Shown: one piece after another, positions 40,620 through 56,461 of the stretch
Numbering within the stretch: the first letter of the stretch is position 1
How the letters are laid out: the number at the start of each line of letters is the position of its first letter
Origin: an uncultured Anaerolineae bacterium
GTDB lineage: Bacteria > Chloroflexota > Anaerolineae > J036 > Brachytrichaceae
Direction: 5' to 3'
Assembly: GCA_937927775.1 (NCBI GenBank)
Contig: CALBEF010000030.1
Coordinates: 1 to 64,000 of the forward strand
Length of the DNA stretch: 64,000 bases
Translations under genes and position numbers: made by a program
Notes under the pieces: generated by a model
Told to the model about the DNA's origin: nothing
Database searches by the model: none
The model's input: the letters and a program-made list of their open reading frames with translations, nothing else

Positions 40620-41489
40620 ATGAGCGAAACACCCATCGTCCTCGGCGTCATCGGCGGGAGCGGACTCTACGCGATGCCCGGCCTGACCGACATTACCGAG
40701 CAGCGCATCCAGACGCCGTTTGGCGACCCCTCGGACGCCATTGTGATCGGTTCCCTGCGCGACAGGCGCGTCGCATTTCTGCCGCGCCATGGCCGGGGGC
40801 ACCGTTTCAGCCCCAGCGAAGTGCCCTATCGCGCCAACATGTACGCCATGAAGGCCCTTGGCGTTAAGCACATCGTCAGTGTCAGCGCGTGCGGCAGTCT
40901 GCGCGAACACATCAAGCCGCGCGACGTGGTTGTGCCCGATCAACTGGTGGACTTCACACGCGGTAAACGCGCGCTGTCGTTTTTCGAGGCCGGCTGGGTG
41001 GCGCATGTCTCCATGGCCGACCCGTACTCAAAGTCGCTCAGCGCGGCGCTGGTGAAGGCCGTGCGCGACGCCGGCGGCGCAGCCCACGCCGGCGGCACAT
41101 TTGTCACCATCGAAGGGCCGCGCTTCAGCACCAGAGCCGAGAGCGCCATGTTCCGCGCCTGGGGCTGCGACATCATCGGCATGACGGCTTCGCCCGAAGC
41201 GGCGCTGGCCCGCGAGGCGGAGATCGATCTGGCCGTCATGGCGCACGTCACCGATTACGACGTGTGGCATGAGTCGGAAGAGCCGGTCACTACCGAGATC
41301 GTCATCGAGCGGCTGAATGCCAACCTGGCGCTGGCGCAACAGGCCATTGCCAATGTCGTTGCTGTTGTTGAATCGCTGCCCCACGAGACCGAGGGGTGCA
41401 TGCGCTATGCGACCATCAGCGCCGCCGAGCGTATTCCACAATCGGCCCGTGAGCGGCTATCATTGCTGATGGGTAAATACCTGCTCTGA
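40620..41489 (+). CDS. mtnP: S-methyl-5'-thioadenosine phosphorylase
   Basis: IGGSGLYAMPGL; LPRHGRGHRFSPSEVPYRANMYAMKALGVKHIVSVSACGSL; VTIEGPRFSTRAESAMFR. Confidence 0.93.
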   Translation: MSETPIVLGVIGGSGLYAMPGLTDITEQRIQTPFGDPSDAIVIGSLRDRRVAFLPRHGRGHRFSPSEVPYRANMYAMKALGVKHIVSVSACGSLREHIKPRDVVVPDQLVDFTRGKRALSFFEAGWVAHVSMADPYSKSLSAALVKAVRDAGGAAHAGGTFVTIEGPRFSTRAESAMFRAWGCDIIGMTASPEAALAREAEIDLAVMAHVTDYDVWHESEEPVTTEIVIERLNANLALAQQAIANVVAVVESLPHETEGCMRYATISAAERIPQSARERLSLLMGKYLL

Positions 41490-50053: not shown

Positions 50054-52489
50054 CTATAGCGCCTCGATCGCCGGCTGCCACGCCAGCGCAACCAGGTCCA
50101 CAAAGATGTCGCTCTTGCGCGGCGACACCGGCGTCTGCGTCACATCATCCAATGCCGCCAGCCAGCGACTGTTGACCGTCTCCAGCGCCAGCTTATATTC
50201 AGCCCCAATGCGCTCCAGGTCGGCGGTCAATTTGGCGATCACGTCCTCCGACTCTTTCACTTCTTCCTCGGCCGCCAAAGTGGCCCGCCTTTTCCAGGCG
50301 CCCCATGACACAGCCCGCCCGGTGCTGCGCTTGTTCCGGCCGATCACAAAGTTGAACACCGACTCGACATTGGTCAGCAGCTCCTCGCGTTTGCGCGCGT
50401 CCAGCTCGGTGCGATCCATGCTCAGTTCGCGCTGCTCGCGGGCCAGACGATCCTGAAGCGTCGCGATGCGCCGCTCGAACTGGTTGTGCACTTTGGTTGC
50501 GTCGGCGTCGCGCTTTGTTCTGGCTGCGCTCTCGCAGCGTTGGCGGAAAGCGCGCTGGTCTTCATCCGGCCGGCCATACATTCGCAGCGCGCGATTGAAC
50601 CACACATGGATCACGGCGTTCCGGTAGATGTGCTCGATCAGGGCCCGCTCGGCCTGTTTCATCCAGCGGCTGGTCAGGCCGGGCGGCAGCGCCCCGAATT
50701 TCGCTCCGGGCACAGGCGCGCGCGCCAGGGCGTTGACATCAAAGCCAGACACGGTTTGCGCCTGCGTGAAATCGGGCGTTGGCGTCAACTGGCGCAACGG
50801 CAACAGGTAGGTGTAACGTTGATTGCTGGTGACGCCGCTGGCGCGATCGGCGAAGCGCACGCTGGCGCTTGCCAGCAGAAAAGGCTGATAGACAGCGCCT
50901 GTGGTTTGCCCGGCGCCGGCCGGCAAAAACACTTCGCGCACATCGGGCGGCAGGGCCGGCCGGCCTGTGGTTGTTGAGCGCGCCTCGCCCATCTCTGGCG
51001 CCACCTGACGTGCGGCGATCTCATGCGCAACGGCGCCGGCAGCGAGGCCGGAAGGCGCATGTTCCGGCGCAGCGCCGGTTGGCCTGAGCTGGCGCAGTTG
51101 CTCGCGCGTCAACGGCCCGCGCAGGAAACTCATCGCCCAGCGCGTGCGCAGAAAGCGCGGCTCGCCGCTGGCGGTCTGTACCAGAAAGGTGCGCGGCGGC
51201 AACACGCGCAGCGGCCCTTCGAACGTCTCGCGGTCGAAACCGATGCCGGCGGTCTCCAGACCTTCCAGCGCGCGCGCCCGATCGCGTTCGGTGCGCAGCC
51301 GGCCGATGAACCACGTCCCAATGTTGGACAGCGCCTTGTAATCCAGGTCGGCCGGGTTCTGCGTGGCCATGAACACGCCCAGCCCCGCCGCGCGGCCCTG
51401 CTTCACCAGCGTCATCAGCGGCGTTTTGGTGGGCGGGTTGCGCGAGGGCGGCAGGTAGCCGAACACCTCGTCGAAATACACCAGACAGCGCAGCGTCGAT
51501 GTGCCGGTGTGCGAGCGCATCCACAGAACCAGTTGGGAAAGCAGCAGTGTCACAAAGAACTGGCGCTCGGCGTCGCCCAGGTGCGCCAGATAGAACACAT
51601 TGGCCGGCGTCTTGCCGGCCGGGTTGAGGCTGCCCGGCTCGCGCGCCGGCTTCACCAGATTGGAAATGTCGAGCGGCGGGCCGGATTGCCAGGCTGCGAA
51701 CGAAGGAGATGCGACCAGCGCGTTCAGCGCCATCGCCAGCTTGAAGCGATCGGCCCGGGGATAGAACACATCCATGTCGAACACGCCGATCTTGCTGACG
51801 GGCGGCTCCTGGATCATGCGAATGAGCAGCGCCATGTCGACCGGCTGGCCGGCTCGCCAGGCAGCCTCGAAAAGCGTAGCCAGCAGAATGTGCTCGCGGC
51901 TTTTCATCGGGTCGGCCTGAATGCCGGCCAGATCGAGCACCGCCGAGCAGATCTGCGCGATGCGCTCGCGCAGCATCTCCGCGCCGCTGGCCCACGGAAT
52001 GCCGGCCGGCGGGTTCAAACCCTGCAACAGGTTGACGGCCATGCCGGCGTCGCTGCCGGGCGTGAAGATGCGCACACTGGCGCGGTCGCGCAATGCCTGC
52101 GCGCGCTCCGGCCCGATCCCCGACTCCGCCAGGCCCTCGCGCCATTTGCGCGCAGTGTGGGCCGCCAGTTCATCCAGCGTGACCTGGCTGTGCGCGGCTT
52201 CGTCCTCCGTCAGCCACGGCTTAAAGTCGGATGGCGCCAGGGCGGGGAAGGTGAGCGCCAGATTGGTGATGTCGCCTTTGGGGTCGATGATGATGAGCGG
52301 GATGCCCTGCAGGAGCAGTTCTTCCAGCACACTGATGCCCAGGCCGGTCTTGCCGGTGCCGGTCATGCCCAGGCACACCGCGTGCGTAATGAGATCCCGT
52401 AATGTGATCGTGAACGGCGCGTCGGTCGTTTGTTGGCTCGATGGGAAGAACTCCCGGCCCAGATAGAGTTTTCCAGGTTGGTCGATCAT
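50054..52489 (-). CDS. HerA/VirB4-like P-loop ATPase with C-terminal coiled coil
   Basis: CLGMTGTGKTGLGISVLEELLLQGIPLIIIDPKGDITNLAL; LRCLVYFDEVFGYLPPSRNPPTKTPLMTLVKQGRAAGLGVFMATQNPADLDYKALSNIGTWFIGRL. Confidence 0.85.
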   Translation of the reverse strand: MIDQPGKLYLGREFFPSSQQTTDAPFTITLRDLITHAVCLGMTGTGKTGLGISVLEELLLQGIPLIIIDPKGDITNLALTFPALAPSDFKPWLTEDEAAHSQVTLDELAAHTARKWREGLAESGIGPERAQALRDRASVRIFTPGSDAGMAVNLLQGLNPPAGIPWASGAEMLRERIAQICSAVLDLAGIQADPMKSREHILLATLFEAAWRAGQPVDMALLIRMIQEPPVSKIGVFDMDVFYPRADRFKLAMALNALVASPSFAAWQSGPPLDISNLVKPAREPGSLNPAGKTPANVFYLAHLGDAERQFFVTLLLSQLVLWMRSHTGTSTLRCLVYFDEVFGYLPPSRNPPTKTPLMTLVKQGRAAGLGVFMATQNPADLDYKALSNIGTWFIGRLRTERDRARALEGLETAGIGFDRETFEGPLRVLPPRTFLVQTASGEPRFLRTRWAMSFLRGPLTREQLRQLRPTGAAPEHAPSGLAAGAVAHEIAARQVAPEMGEARSTTTGRPALPPDVREVFLPAGAGQTTGAVYQPFLLASASVRFADRASGVTSNQRYTYLLPLRQLTPTPDFTQAQTVSGFDVNALARAPVPGAKFGALPPGLTSRWMKQAERALIEHIYRNAVIHVWFNRALRMYGRPDEDQRAFRQRCESAARTKRDADATKVHNQFERRIATLQDRLAREQRELSMDRTELDARKREELLTNVESVFNFVIGRNKRSTGRAVSWGAWKRRATLAAEEEVKESEDVIAKLTADLERIGAEYKLALETVNSRWLAALDDVTQTPVSPRKSDIFVDLVALAWQPAIEAL

Positions 52490-52608: not shown

Positions 52609-53361
52609 TCAGACCTGCCGCGCCAGATCGCCAAATCGGGCCGCCACTTCGCCCTGGCCGGTTGCAACGATCAGGCTGCCGTCCTCTTCGACGCGAATGG
52701 CGCGGCCGCAAACGACACCCTGGTCGGCCTCGATCTCGACCTGCTTGCCCAGTGTCTCGACGTGGCGGGCGTACTCGCCGGCCGGGCTGCGCTGCCCGCG
52801 CGCCAGTTCGTTCTGCCGCTCGCCGACGCGCCGCAGGAGTGACGCCAGGATGCGCTCGCGGTCGAGCGGAATGCCGAATTCGCGCCACAGGCTGGTGGCG
52901 CGCTGTTGCACCTCGGCCGGCGCGTCGTCAAAGCGCGTGTTGACATTCAGGCCGATGCCCAGCACCGCATAATCGAAGCGTTCGCCGGTGATGGATGACT
53001 CCACCAGAATGCCGCACACTTTGCGCCCATTCAGAAGCACATCGTTGAACCACTTGATGGCGGCGGAGAACGGTGTCGCAGTTGCGGCATCTCTCAGATC
53101 TTCGAGGGTGTCAATGACGGCAAGCGCCGCCGACATGGTGATCCAGCCGGCCTGCGCGGGCGCCAGGCGCGGGCGCAGCACCAGCGACAGATACAACGAC
53201 TGGCCGGGCGGCGAATACCACCCGTGGCCGGCGCGCCCCCGCCCGGCAGTTTGCGCGTCGGCCAGAACGACCGTCCCCTCCGGCGCGCCGCGCTCGGCGA
53301 GTTGGCGCGCCACGTCCATCGTCGAGGTAACGACGGTGTGCCGCGTGATGTGGAACTGCAT
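52609..53361 (-). CDS. birA: Biotin-[acetyl-CoA-carboxylase] ligase
   Basis: VLADAQTAGRGRAGHGWYSPPGQSLYLSLVLRP; IKWFNDVLLNGRKVCGILVES; VLGIGLNVN. Confidence 0.92.
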   Translation of the reverse strand: MQFHITRHTVVTSTMDVARQLAERGAPEGTVVLADAQTAGRGRAGHGWYSPPGQSLYLSLVLRPRLAPAQAGWITMSAALAVIDTLEDLRDAATATPFSAAIKWFNDVLLNGRKVCGILVESSITGERFDYAVLGIGLNVNTRFDDAPAEVQQRATSLWREFGIPLDRERILASLLRRVGERQNELARGQRSPAGEYARHVETLGKQVEIEADQGVVCGRAIRVEEDGSLIVATGQGEVAARFGDLARQV

Positions 53362-53391: not shown

Positions 53392-55386
53392 TTACCCTTC
53401 CGCAATCTCCACATACTCTTCGCGCACGAGCGCGTCGTCGGGAACGCCAAAATAGTCGAGCAGTTTTCCGATGATGTCTGCCTTGCGCGCAGCGTCTCTG
53501 GGGCTCCAGGTGCGGCTCTTGATCTCGAGGAAATAGCCGTTGCGCTTTGGCTCGATCATCTGATCGATGTTGATGAAGAGGTTCTCGTCCTCGAAGATGA
53601 CCTCCCAGCGCAGGCGGTCCTTCTCGATGGTGACTTCGCGCGACGGCTGGAAGTATTCACGGTAGAAGCGCAGGCTGCGATCGGCCGGCGCGATGAAGCG
53701 CGAGCGCGACATGAGCACAGAATGCGCGAACTCGCGCTCCTTCTGCGGGCCGATCAGCGTCAGCCGGTAGCGGCTGCTGACGGTGTGCCCATGCTCGTCC
53801 ACCCCGTCATCCTCTCGATAGCGCAGGCGCGACTCCTCGTTATCGAAGAAGAAGTAGGTGTCGTACTGGCGGTAGTGCACATGCCGGACGACGGCGAGCG
53901 GGCTGTTGTCTCCTGCGCCCTGGATTGCGGCAATGACGGGTTGCGCGTCGTCGAGATGGGCCTTGACCTGGATCTCGAACGACTCTTCCTGTTGCACGCC
54001 GCCGATGGCGGCCAGCTTGCTCAGCACGTCGCCTTCGCGTTCGATAAGGAAGACATCGATCTGTTTTGCCAGCGCGTTGGCGCGCCGGCGAATGTCCTCC
54101 TCGTCCAACGTGAGCAACACGCGATTGCGCATCAGCGGCCGGCCATTCACCCACACATCGCGCACATCGGTCGATTTGCCGGCGTACACGATCTGCGTGT
54201 AGACGCTGGCCGGGTCGTGTGACAGGCAAGCGTACTGCGGCGTGTTGTGCAGTCTGTCGAGTTCCAGCACAATCACGTCGGCGCGCTTGCCCGGCGTCAG
54301 CGAGCCGGTGATGTCGCCGATGTGCAGCGCGCGCGCGCCTTCGATGGTGGCCATAGCCAGCGCCGCGCGCGCCGGCACGGTGACGGGGTCGCGCGTGCTG
54401 CCTTTCGCCAACAGCGCCGCCAGCCGCATCTCCTCGAAGTGATCCAGGTCGTTGTTGCTGGCCGGGCCGTCGGTGCCGATGCCAACGTGCAGGCCGGCTG
54501 CCAGCATCTGGGTGACGTTGGCGATGCCGCTGGCCAGCTTGAGGTTGGCGGTCGGGTTGTGCGCCACAGTGGCGCCGGCGCGCTTGAGGGTGCGCATTTC
54601 GCCCTGGTCGATGGCGGTGCAGTGGGCGGCGATCACTTTGGCCTCCAGCACGCCGTGTTTTTTCACCCATGCCACCACCGGCATGCCGTTCTCGCGCCGG
54701 CAGTCCTCCACTTCCTGATAGGTCTCGCTGATGTGAATGTGCAGCGGCACGTCGTACTTCACGGCTATCTCGGCGCAGCGCCGCATGAGCGCCCCGCTGC
54801 ACGTGTAGGGCGCGTGCGGCGCAACCACCGGCACGATCAGCGGATGCCCTTTCCATTTCTGGATCAGCGCCTCGCACGCTTCGAGGCTGTCTTCGTATGA
54901 CGCCGCGTCGGGCGTCGGGTACTGCATGATGGTCTGCGAGCACAGCGCGCGCATGCCGGCGTCGGCGATGGTCTGGGCGATGGTGTCCTCGAAGTAGTAC
55001 ATGTCGTTGACGCATGTGACGCCGCTGCGGATCATCTCTGCGCAGGCCAGTTGCGCGCCGAGCGCGACGAATTCCGGCGAGACGAAATGGCGCTCGACCG
55101 GCAGCATGTAGCCATACAGCCACACATCGAGCCGGCGGTCGTCGGCCAGTCCGCGCAGCAACGTCATCGGCACGTGCGTGTGCGCATTGATGAGGCCGGG
55201 CATGATGACGCAGCCGGCGCAATCGACGACCTCGCTCGCCTGATAGCGCGCGCAGATCTCGGCGGACGGGCCGGCGGCGACGATGGCGTCGCCTGCGATG
55301 GCGACAGCGCCGGCGGGGCACAGCGAGAAGCTGTCGTCCATCGTCACCACAATGCCGTTGGTGAGGAGAGTGTCTACCTGCTGCAT
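53392..55386 (-). CDS. MTA/SAH-deaminase-like amidohydrolase fused to a C-terminal CYTH-like domain
   Basis: Amidohydrolase: GCVIMPGLINAHTHVPMTLLRGLADDRRLDVWLYGYMLPVE, VAPHAPYTCS, IHISET, AAHC, GTDGPASNNDLD; C-term: SFEIQVKAHLDD..YDTYFFF..SRLRYRED..EVTIEKDRLRWEVIFEDENLFINIDQMIEPKRNGYFLEIKSRTW. Confidence 0.88.
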   Translation of the reverse strand: MQQVDTLLTNGIVVTMDDSFSLCPAGAVAIAGDAIVAAGPSAEICARYQASEVVDCAGCVIMPGLINAHTHVPMTLLRGLADDRRLDVWLYGYMLPVERHFVSPEFVALGAQLACAEMIRSGVTCVNDMYYFEDTIAQTIADAGMRALCSQTIMQYPTPDAASYEDSLEACEALIQKWKGHPLIVPVVAPHAPYTCSGALMRRCAEIAVKYDVPLHIHISETYQEVEDCRRENGMPVVAWVKKHGVLEAKVIAAHCTAIDQGEMRTLKRAGATVAHNPTANLKLASGIANVTQMLAAGLHVGIGTDGPASNNDLDHFEEMRLAALLAKGSTRDPVTVPARAALAMATIEGARALHIGDITGSLTPGKRADVIVLELDRLHNTPQYACLSHDPASVYTQIVYAGKSTDVRDVWVNGRPLMRNRVLLTLDEEDIRRRANALAKQIDVFLIEREGDVLSKLAAIGGVQQEESFEIQVKAHLDDAQPVIAAIQGAGDNSPLAVVRHVHYRQYDTYFFFDNEESRLRYREDDGVDEHGHTVSSRYRLTLIGPQKEREFAHSVLMSRSRFIAPADRSLRFYREYFQPSREVTIEKDRLRWEVIFEDENLFINIDQMIEPKRNGYFLEIKSRTWSPRDAARKADIIGKLLDYFGVPDDALVREEYVEIAEG

Positions 55387-55702
55387 GAGGCAGTTATAGC
55401 ATACCCATGGCCGTGCCTGGCTGTGCGCGGGTGTATTGCTCTGTGGGGGCATGTTGCCGGGTTGACGTTGCGCGCGCGGATCATATCCGGGGATTCATCC
55501 GCCGCGCAAATCAGCGGATTGCCCCTGCCGGGAAATGCTCCCTAATTTCCAGCCGATTCCGTGTCTGTCTGCATGAGCCGCCTTCTCGTATCTGTGTTCT
55601 GGGTGGTGCGCGATATGCAGAAGCCGGCTAGAAACCGCTTAAATGTGGTCCGACGTGTCTCGGTGTCTCGCCATAACGACCCGGAGCATGTAAAATCAGG
55701 CC

Positions 55703-56461
55703 ATGAGCTCGCCACGCGACTCGGTCACACCCACACTTGCAGCCATCCTGCAGGCTACGCATCAGCCTGACCAGCGCATTATGCTGCGCGCCCCCAGTGT
55801 GCGGATTGGGCGCGGCGTGACCGGCGCTTATGACATCATCATTCAGCCGGATGATGTGTCTGTGTCGCGCGAGCATGCCTACCTGGTGCTGGAAACGAAC
55901 GTCTGGGTTTTCCACGACACCAGCCGGAATGGGAGCTACGTAAACGGGGAATTGGTGAAAGGACGGCGCGTGGCGCTCAAGCCGGGTGATCGCATCCAGA
56001 TCGGCAAGACCTTCGACTACACATTCAGGATCATCAGCCCGACCTATGAGATGCAGCTCGATCCCGAAGTGCCCAGAGACCTGGGTCAACCGTTGTCGGG
56101 AGGGACTGAATCGCCACCGAGCAAGACAGGCATCTGGATCAGCCCAAGCGCCGCCGTGTGGCGCGACGGCGCCGTTTTGCCGGCCATGCTTTCGCGCACG
56201 GAGTATCGCTTGCTCAAGTTTCTGGCCCGCCGGCCCGGCGATGTGTGTGACTACGATTCCGTCATCCGCGCTGTATGGGGAAGCCCGCGCGAAAAGGACA
56301 GCCTGCACGAGCTGATCTATCGCGTGCGACGCAAGATCGAGCCTGATCCCTCCATGCCGCGCTATCTCATCATCCGCTCCGGTATCGGCGTGGTGTTCTT
56401 TCCGCAGGGGGCCGACGCCAACGGCGCGGCGCCCGAGGCGTCGCCAACCGATGGCGCGTGA
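55703..56461 (+). CDS. FHA domain - winged-helix (OmpR/PhoB C-terminal type) regulator
   Basis: IGRGVTGAYDIIIQPDDVSVSREHAYLVLETNVWVFHDTSRNGSYVNGELV; LSRTEYRLLKFLARRPGDVCDYDSVIRAVWG...DSLHELIYRVRRKIEPDPS. Confidence 0.88.
   Translation: MSSPRDSVTPTLAAILQATHQPDQRIMLRAPSVRIGRGVTGAYDIIIQPDDVSVSREHAYLVLETNVWVFHDTSRNGSYVNGELVKGRRVALKPGDRIQIGKTFDYTFRIISPTYEMQLDPEVPRDLGQPLSGGTESPPSKTGIWISPSAAVWRDGAVLPAMLSRTEYRLLKFLARRPGDVCDYDSVIRAVWGSPREKDSLHELIYRVRRKIEPDPSMPRYLIIRSGIGVVFFPQGADANGAAPEASPTDGA

Follow-up and report, generated by a model that had tools for sequence, protein, structure and literature searches.

The window, the 64,000-nucleotide stretch of DNA from an uncultured Anaerolineae bacterium analyzed here, encodes a 664-residue protein that joins an MTA/SAH/adenosine-type deaminase to a CYTH (triphosphate tunnel, TTM) domain whose tunnel motifs are altered in the same way across the fused family. 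With roughly even confidence, and in preference to a bifunctional enzyme or a scaffold, we favor reading it as a deaminase that carries a non-hydrolysing, triphosphate-binding CYTH regulatory domain, for which we infer the substrate, the ligand, the loss of hydrolysis and the coupling. This reading is based on both folds, the intact deaminase metal ligands, the conserved fusion, and the invariant but altered tunnel.

Most work on CYTH domains treats them as enzymes. If the favored reading is true, this CYTH subfamily, deeply conserved, with its metal site rewired uniformly and one deaminase as its constant partner, would illustrate the conversion of a triphosphatase fold into a regulatory domain. 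Both halves come from known families. Described fusion partners of CYTH include an HD hydrolase, exopolyphosphatase, nucleotidyl kinase, and CHAD (PMC8233210). No report of CYTH fused to an amidohydrolase or deaminase was found in the open-access papers searched; subscription papers or domain databases may mention one.

The fused gene, its deaminase half, and its spread

The open reading frame occupies 53392-55386 on the reverse strand including the stop codon (53392-53394), as the earlier note had placed it, contains no internal stops, and is translated from an ATG at 55386 into 664 amino acids (53395-55386). An upstream in-frame ATG at 55452 would give a product of 686 amino acids; homologs begin at the inner methionine of the 664-residue form. 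The protein is encoded in a single frame in all relatives whose copy is not cut by a contig end, and a full-length structural model has a pLDDT of 90.2 and a pTM of 0.82. All features of the gene described below are on the reverse strand.

The N-terminal half (residues ~1-440; 54067-55386) had been described as a metal-dependent amidohydrolase with the expected motifs, and the description holds. Pfam Amidohydro_1 matches residues 60-416 (E 6.9e-70; 236 bits against a cut-off of 25), and the nearest solved structures (4f0r/4f0s/4dzh/4gbd) are of the MTA/SAH/adenosine deaminase type. Over the target, the best solved relatives (4f0r, 4dzh and 4gbd, which deaminate MTA/SAH or adenosine) reach TM-scores of 0.95-0.97, and the closest is the MTA/SAH deaminase 4f0r (Foldseek TMt 0.96; ~41% identity). 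The HxH metal motif, H69-T-H71 (55174-55182), was located by motif position and by its invariance in fused homologs, across which the metal ligands H69, H71, H218, H255 and D306 and the catalytic E221 are all invariant; with these residues intact, the deaminase half is predicted, and expected, to be active. It falls below the NCBIfam equivalog cut-offs (PRK09045, 469 vs 540; PRK15493, 295 vs 779), so its substrate is not named. The half shares fold, metal ligands, and length with the MTA/SAH deaminases of Chromobacterium violaceum (4f0r/4f0s) and Thermotoga maritima (TM0936), whereas these solved relatives have no CYTH domain. Conservation and the full-length model place linker helices at residues ~441-460 (54007-54066), with F446, R450, E451 and K457 nearly invariant.

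The fusion is genuine and ancient. Matches spanning both halves were found in 46 of 60 relatives, including single-contig genomes, with a few copies cut by contig ends, and 89 of 400 Chloroflexota genomes carry the fusion, both in the window's class and in families outside it; named records include Candidatus Roseilinea, Thermoflexales, Anaerolineales, and others. It also occurs in three of 40 Calditrichota genomes, one copy lying 688 kb into its contig. The conservation that the earlier note wished to see checked is thus present, and its concern about an artefact is refuted. Because the window's genome is fragmented (135 contigs), one could imagine that the fusion arose from faulty assembly or annotation, or that two genes are read through by chance, but the same single frame recurs in the single-contig genomes G021, G053 and G056 and across two phyla, and short copies are found only at contig edges (six of 141 distinct sequences, all six running to the edge), leaving this explanation with practically no probability, and it was rejected. 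Among the 141 sequences, none could be shown to lack the fusion.

In a tree of the deaminase half, one branch with 100/100 support sets the 34 fused rows apart; unfused rows were sampled only from the window's relatives, so broader sampling might bring in unfused members. The closest unfused relatives share ~42-47% identity with the window protein. The Calditrichota copies fall inside the Chloroflexota clade, which suggests that the fusion was transferred.

Strong purifying selection acts on the CYTH half, which is not decaying: its within-genus dN/dS values are 0.069 and 0.057, and those of the deaminase half are 0.095 and 0.082 (by simple NG86 estimation; dS of the second pair is high and probably saturated). 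Mean identity over 9710 pairs is 51% for the CYTH half and 60% for the deaminase half. One relative encodes two full-length copies (G013:C121:15481-17457 and G013:C53:23293-25269), and in an ortholog at G033:C94:6713-8680 the match contains an in-frame TAG, which may be a sequencing error or mark a broken gene.

A CYTH domain with an altered tunnel

The C-terminal part runs from S469 (nt 53982) to residue 664 (53395-53982). The window copy of this part, searched alone, has no CYTH match in Pfam or NCBIfam, so orthologs and structure are needed to call the fold; a search of PDB sequences with the C-terminal part alone gave no match, and one with its profile gave only chance MutS matches. Among orthologs, Pfam CYTH matches 7 of 22 (best E 2e-06), with fused proteins exceeding the PF01928 cut-off of 23.2 bits (e.g. 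33.5, 28.0, 25.3, 23.7, and 23.6), and profile-profile alignment to the stand-alone CYTH proteins that related genomes encode covered 162 columns (E 1.7e-07). AlphaFold2 modeling of the part from an ortholog alignment reached a pLDDT of 87.1 and a pTM of 0.84. The earlier note had made its reading depend on an eight-stranded tunnel barrel, and exactly eight strands are predicted in the full-length model (469-478, 497-514, 517-529, 535-545, 558-567, 583-598, 601-612 and 618-626), followed by a helix at 629-646. When this part was compared with the PDB using Foldseek, the best matches were class IV adenylyl cyclase structures, with AtTTM3 also among the top matches; the best 45 rows are mostly CYTH/TTM structures, including a Pyrococcus CYTH protein, mouse and human thiamine triphosphatase and YgiF, together with distant relatives (Cet1-type RNA triphosphatases and Mediator head subunits). 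Model, structural matches, ortholog Pfam matches, and profile comparison together support the CYTH assignment made from the DNA alone: the C-terminal half has a CYTH fold, of a divergent subfamily that is not a canonical TTM.

Much of the tunnel is retained. The fused domain has the DxY motif described in PMC8233210 as D509-T-Y511 (53854-53862; D in 141/141, Y in 140/141), the tunnel arginines of xRxR as R522-Y-R524 (53815-53823; 141/141) and the basic residues K589-x-R591-x-R593 (53608-53622; 140/140), and N606 and D608 are likewise invariant. The two acidic motifs are changed in all 140 sequences that cover them. The hallmark ExExK is replaced by ExQxK (E471-I-Q473-V-K475; 53962-53976; E, Q and K invariant in 140/140 to 141/141), and the late ExE by ExK (E621-I-K623; 53518-53526), each pair aligned by profile-profile comparison. 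The Calditrichota copies carry the same ExQxK and ExK motifs, and ExE is kept in 12 other CYTH proteins read by eye. The fused domain shares the eight-stranded tunnel, DxY, xRxR, KxRxR, and the metal-1 glutamate with AtTTM3, YgiF and SaTTM, and differs from them in having ExQxK rather than ExExK, ExK rather than ExE, and a position behind a deaminase.

Published work on AtTTM3 and YgiF assigns metal 1 to the first glutamate of ExE together with the substrate, and metal 2, the proposed activator of water, to both glutamates of ExExK plus the last glutamate of ExE; mutation of Glu-2, Glu-4 or Glu-169 in AtTTM3 strongly reduces hydrolysis (PMC4641920). Mapped by sequence and profile alignment onto the sites of the published structures, the fused family appears to keep metal site 1 (E621) and the basic triphosphate cradle, and to lose two of the three glutamate ligands of metal site 2, with Q473 and K623 in their place, one of them a charge reversal. 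The two-metal-site pattern of a TTM tripolyphosphatase (ExExK plus ExE) is thus absent from the fused CYTH domain, and the W/YxRxR pattern of thiamine triphosphatases is not characteristic of it either, the first position being R520 in 121 of 141 sequences and Y in 8.

Elsewhere in the genome, beyond the window, lies the gene of a second CYTH protein (G000:C53:19428-19913, in a frame of ~550 aa), and the counterparts of this protein in related genomes look like CYTH-CHAD proteins. CYTH-CHAD proteins of the YgiF type, one of which is apparently encoded in this genome, are likewise fusions containing CYTH; they differ from the present one in having CHAD as the partner and in keeping ExE in those that were read.

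Regulatory, catalytic, and structural readings

In the favored reading, the N-terminal half would be a working deaminase of 5'-modified adenosines (MTA, 5'-deoxyadenosine, SAH) or of adenosine, and the CYTH barrel would have been turned into a ligand-binding regulatory domain. With the basic tunnel and metal site 1 kept, the barrel should still bind a Mg-triphosphate (putatively an NTP, PPPi or short polyphosphate), and with most of metal site 2 lost, that ligand should escape hydrolysis by the known TTM mechanism. The bound ligand would tune the deaminase via the conserved linker helix. Direct control of a SAM-by-product or purine-nucleoside deaminase by triphosphate or polyphosphate held in a non-hydrolysing ExQxK/ExK tunnel is a more specific proposal, which we advance tentatively; if true, the TTM fold would here have given rise to a new class of sensors for nucleotides or polyphosphate. 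Such control would tie salvage of purines and SAM by-products to the cellular triphosphate or polyphosphate state in two phyla known largely from metagenomes.

The invariant charged residues of the tunnel are numerous enough that they could equally mark an active site with other chemistry, and their very high invariance would also suit a bifunctional enzyme, in which the CYTH half is catalytic with a changed mechanism (one metal, with K623 and Q473 replacing site 2). Such an enzyme might remove phosphate from a nucleotide, the nucleoside of which is deaminated by the other half, or act as a Vtc4-like phosphotransferase. Yeast Vtc4p and plant TTM1/TTM2 offer precedents, as TTM domains that are active without site 2 or the motifs (PMC4641920; PMC8233210); Vtc4, a phosphotransferase, has site 1 and is without site 2 (PMC4641920). 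These are likewise specialized TTM domains without the canonical acidic patch (PMC8233210; PMC4641920), but they have other partner domains and another set of substitutions. The fused family lacks two of the three glutamates of site 2, with reversed charge at one of these positions, and mutations at such positions in known TTMs cut hydrolysis strongly (PMC4641920); we consider a second catalytic activity rather unlikely. The Q473/K623 motif pair makes the question of sensor or enzyme directly testable by mutation.

Folds resembling TTM that are not enzymes do exist, and the Mediator head subunits among the Foldseek matches would fit a CYTH half that serves merely as a ligand-free structural or oligomerization module. 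A scaffold, however, has no need of the invariance concentrated at the phosphate-binding positions K475, R522, R524, K589, R591, R593 and E621, which makes this explanation improbable.

The earlier note also stated that CYTH proteins act on triphosphates or make cAMP, which for the fused domain is now weakened on both counts, with two site-2 glutamates replaced by Q473 and K623, the HF motif absent, and R522 present. A true class IV adenylyl cyclase requires HF ahead of ExExK (HFxxxxExExK), and where xRxR has its first arginine it requires a small residue (PMC8233210). The best structural match of the fused CYTH domain is such an enzyme, YpCyaB, and class IV cyclases also do without the second glutamate of ExE (PMC8233210), so a cyclase fused to a deaminase has something in its favor. 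Against it, the fused CYTH domain differs from YpCyaB in having no HF before ExQxK and in having the gatekeeper R522, invariant in 141/141 sequences and a small residue in true class IV cyclases (by the criteria of PMC8233210). Since HF is missing and R522 is always present, cAMP synthesis by the fused family is judged unlikely from its sequences, and the cyclase reading as a whole has only a slight probability. The broader suggestion of a coupled nucleotide-processing or sensing enzyme may still hold, with sensing favored and a second catalytic step less so.

Genomic context and candidate substrates

The mtnP homolog that had been noted at 40620-41489 on the forward strand exceeds the NCBIfam cut-off for MTA phosphorylase (TIGR01694; 299.8 bits vs 274.85) and is a possible pathway partner; an MTA phosphorylase also lies within a few kilobases of the fusion in two other loci. 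SAH hydrolase is over its cut-off in 37 of 40 relatives, which makes SAH as the sole substrate less pressing, and MTA/SAH nucleosidase in 2 of 40. With SAH hydrolase common, the nucleosidase mostly absent, and MTA phosphorylase in the window, MTA, 5'-deoxyadenosine, or adenosine are left as the likely substrates of the deaminase, judging from gene content.

No universal neighbor of the fusion was found in 116 loci. The downstream gene in the window, birA (biotin-protein ligase; 52609-53361, reverse strand; TIGR00121 over cut-off), adjoins the fusion in only two of these loci, those of the nearest relatives, and is no part of the fusion system. A pyrimidine-nucleoside phosphorylase (PyNP) adjoins the fusion divergently in 17 loci, a CinA N-terminal-type protein (MoCF_biosynth + CinA_KH) lies directly upstream on the same strand and nearly touching it in 10 (L056, L082, L100, L102, L107, L110, L165, L168, L172, and L174), and dephospho-CoA kinase (coaE) lies directly downstream on the same strand in eight, from families outside the window's class (L142, L146, L149, L152, L154, L157, L160, and L161); these counts treat related loci separately and are not independent events. 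The presence in many loci of such nucleotide or cofactor enzymes speaks for the bifunctional enzyme weighed above. PyNP, CinA-type and CoaE neighbors each turn up repeatedly in some parts of the tree.

Two further genes surround the fusion in the window. Downstream of birA, a homolog of HerA-like ATPases (HerA_C/DUF87) occupies 50054-52480 on the reverse strand; its longest frame, from 52888, overlaps birA, and the true start is probably further in. Divergent from the fusion, a gene at 55703-56461 on the forward strand encodes FHA and Trans_reg_C (a response-regulator-type DNA-binding domain), and in 17-19 of the 116 loci the fusion has an FHA gene nearby.
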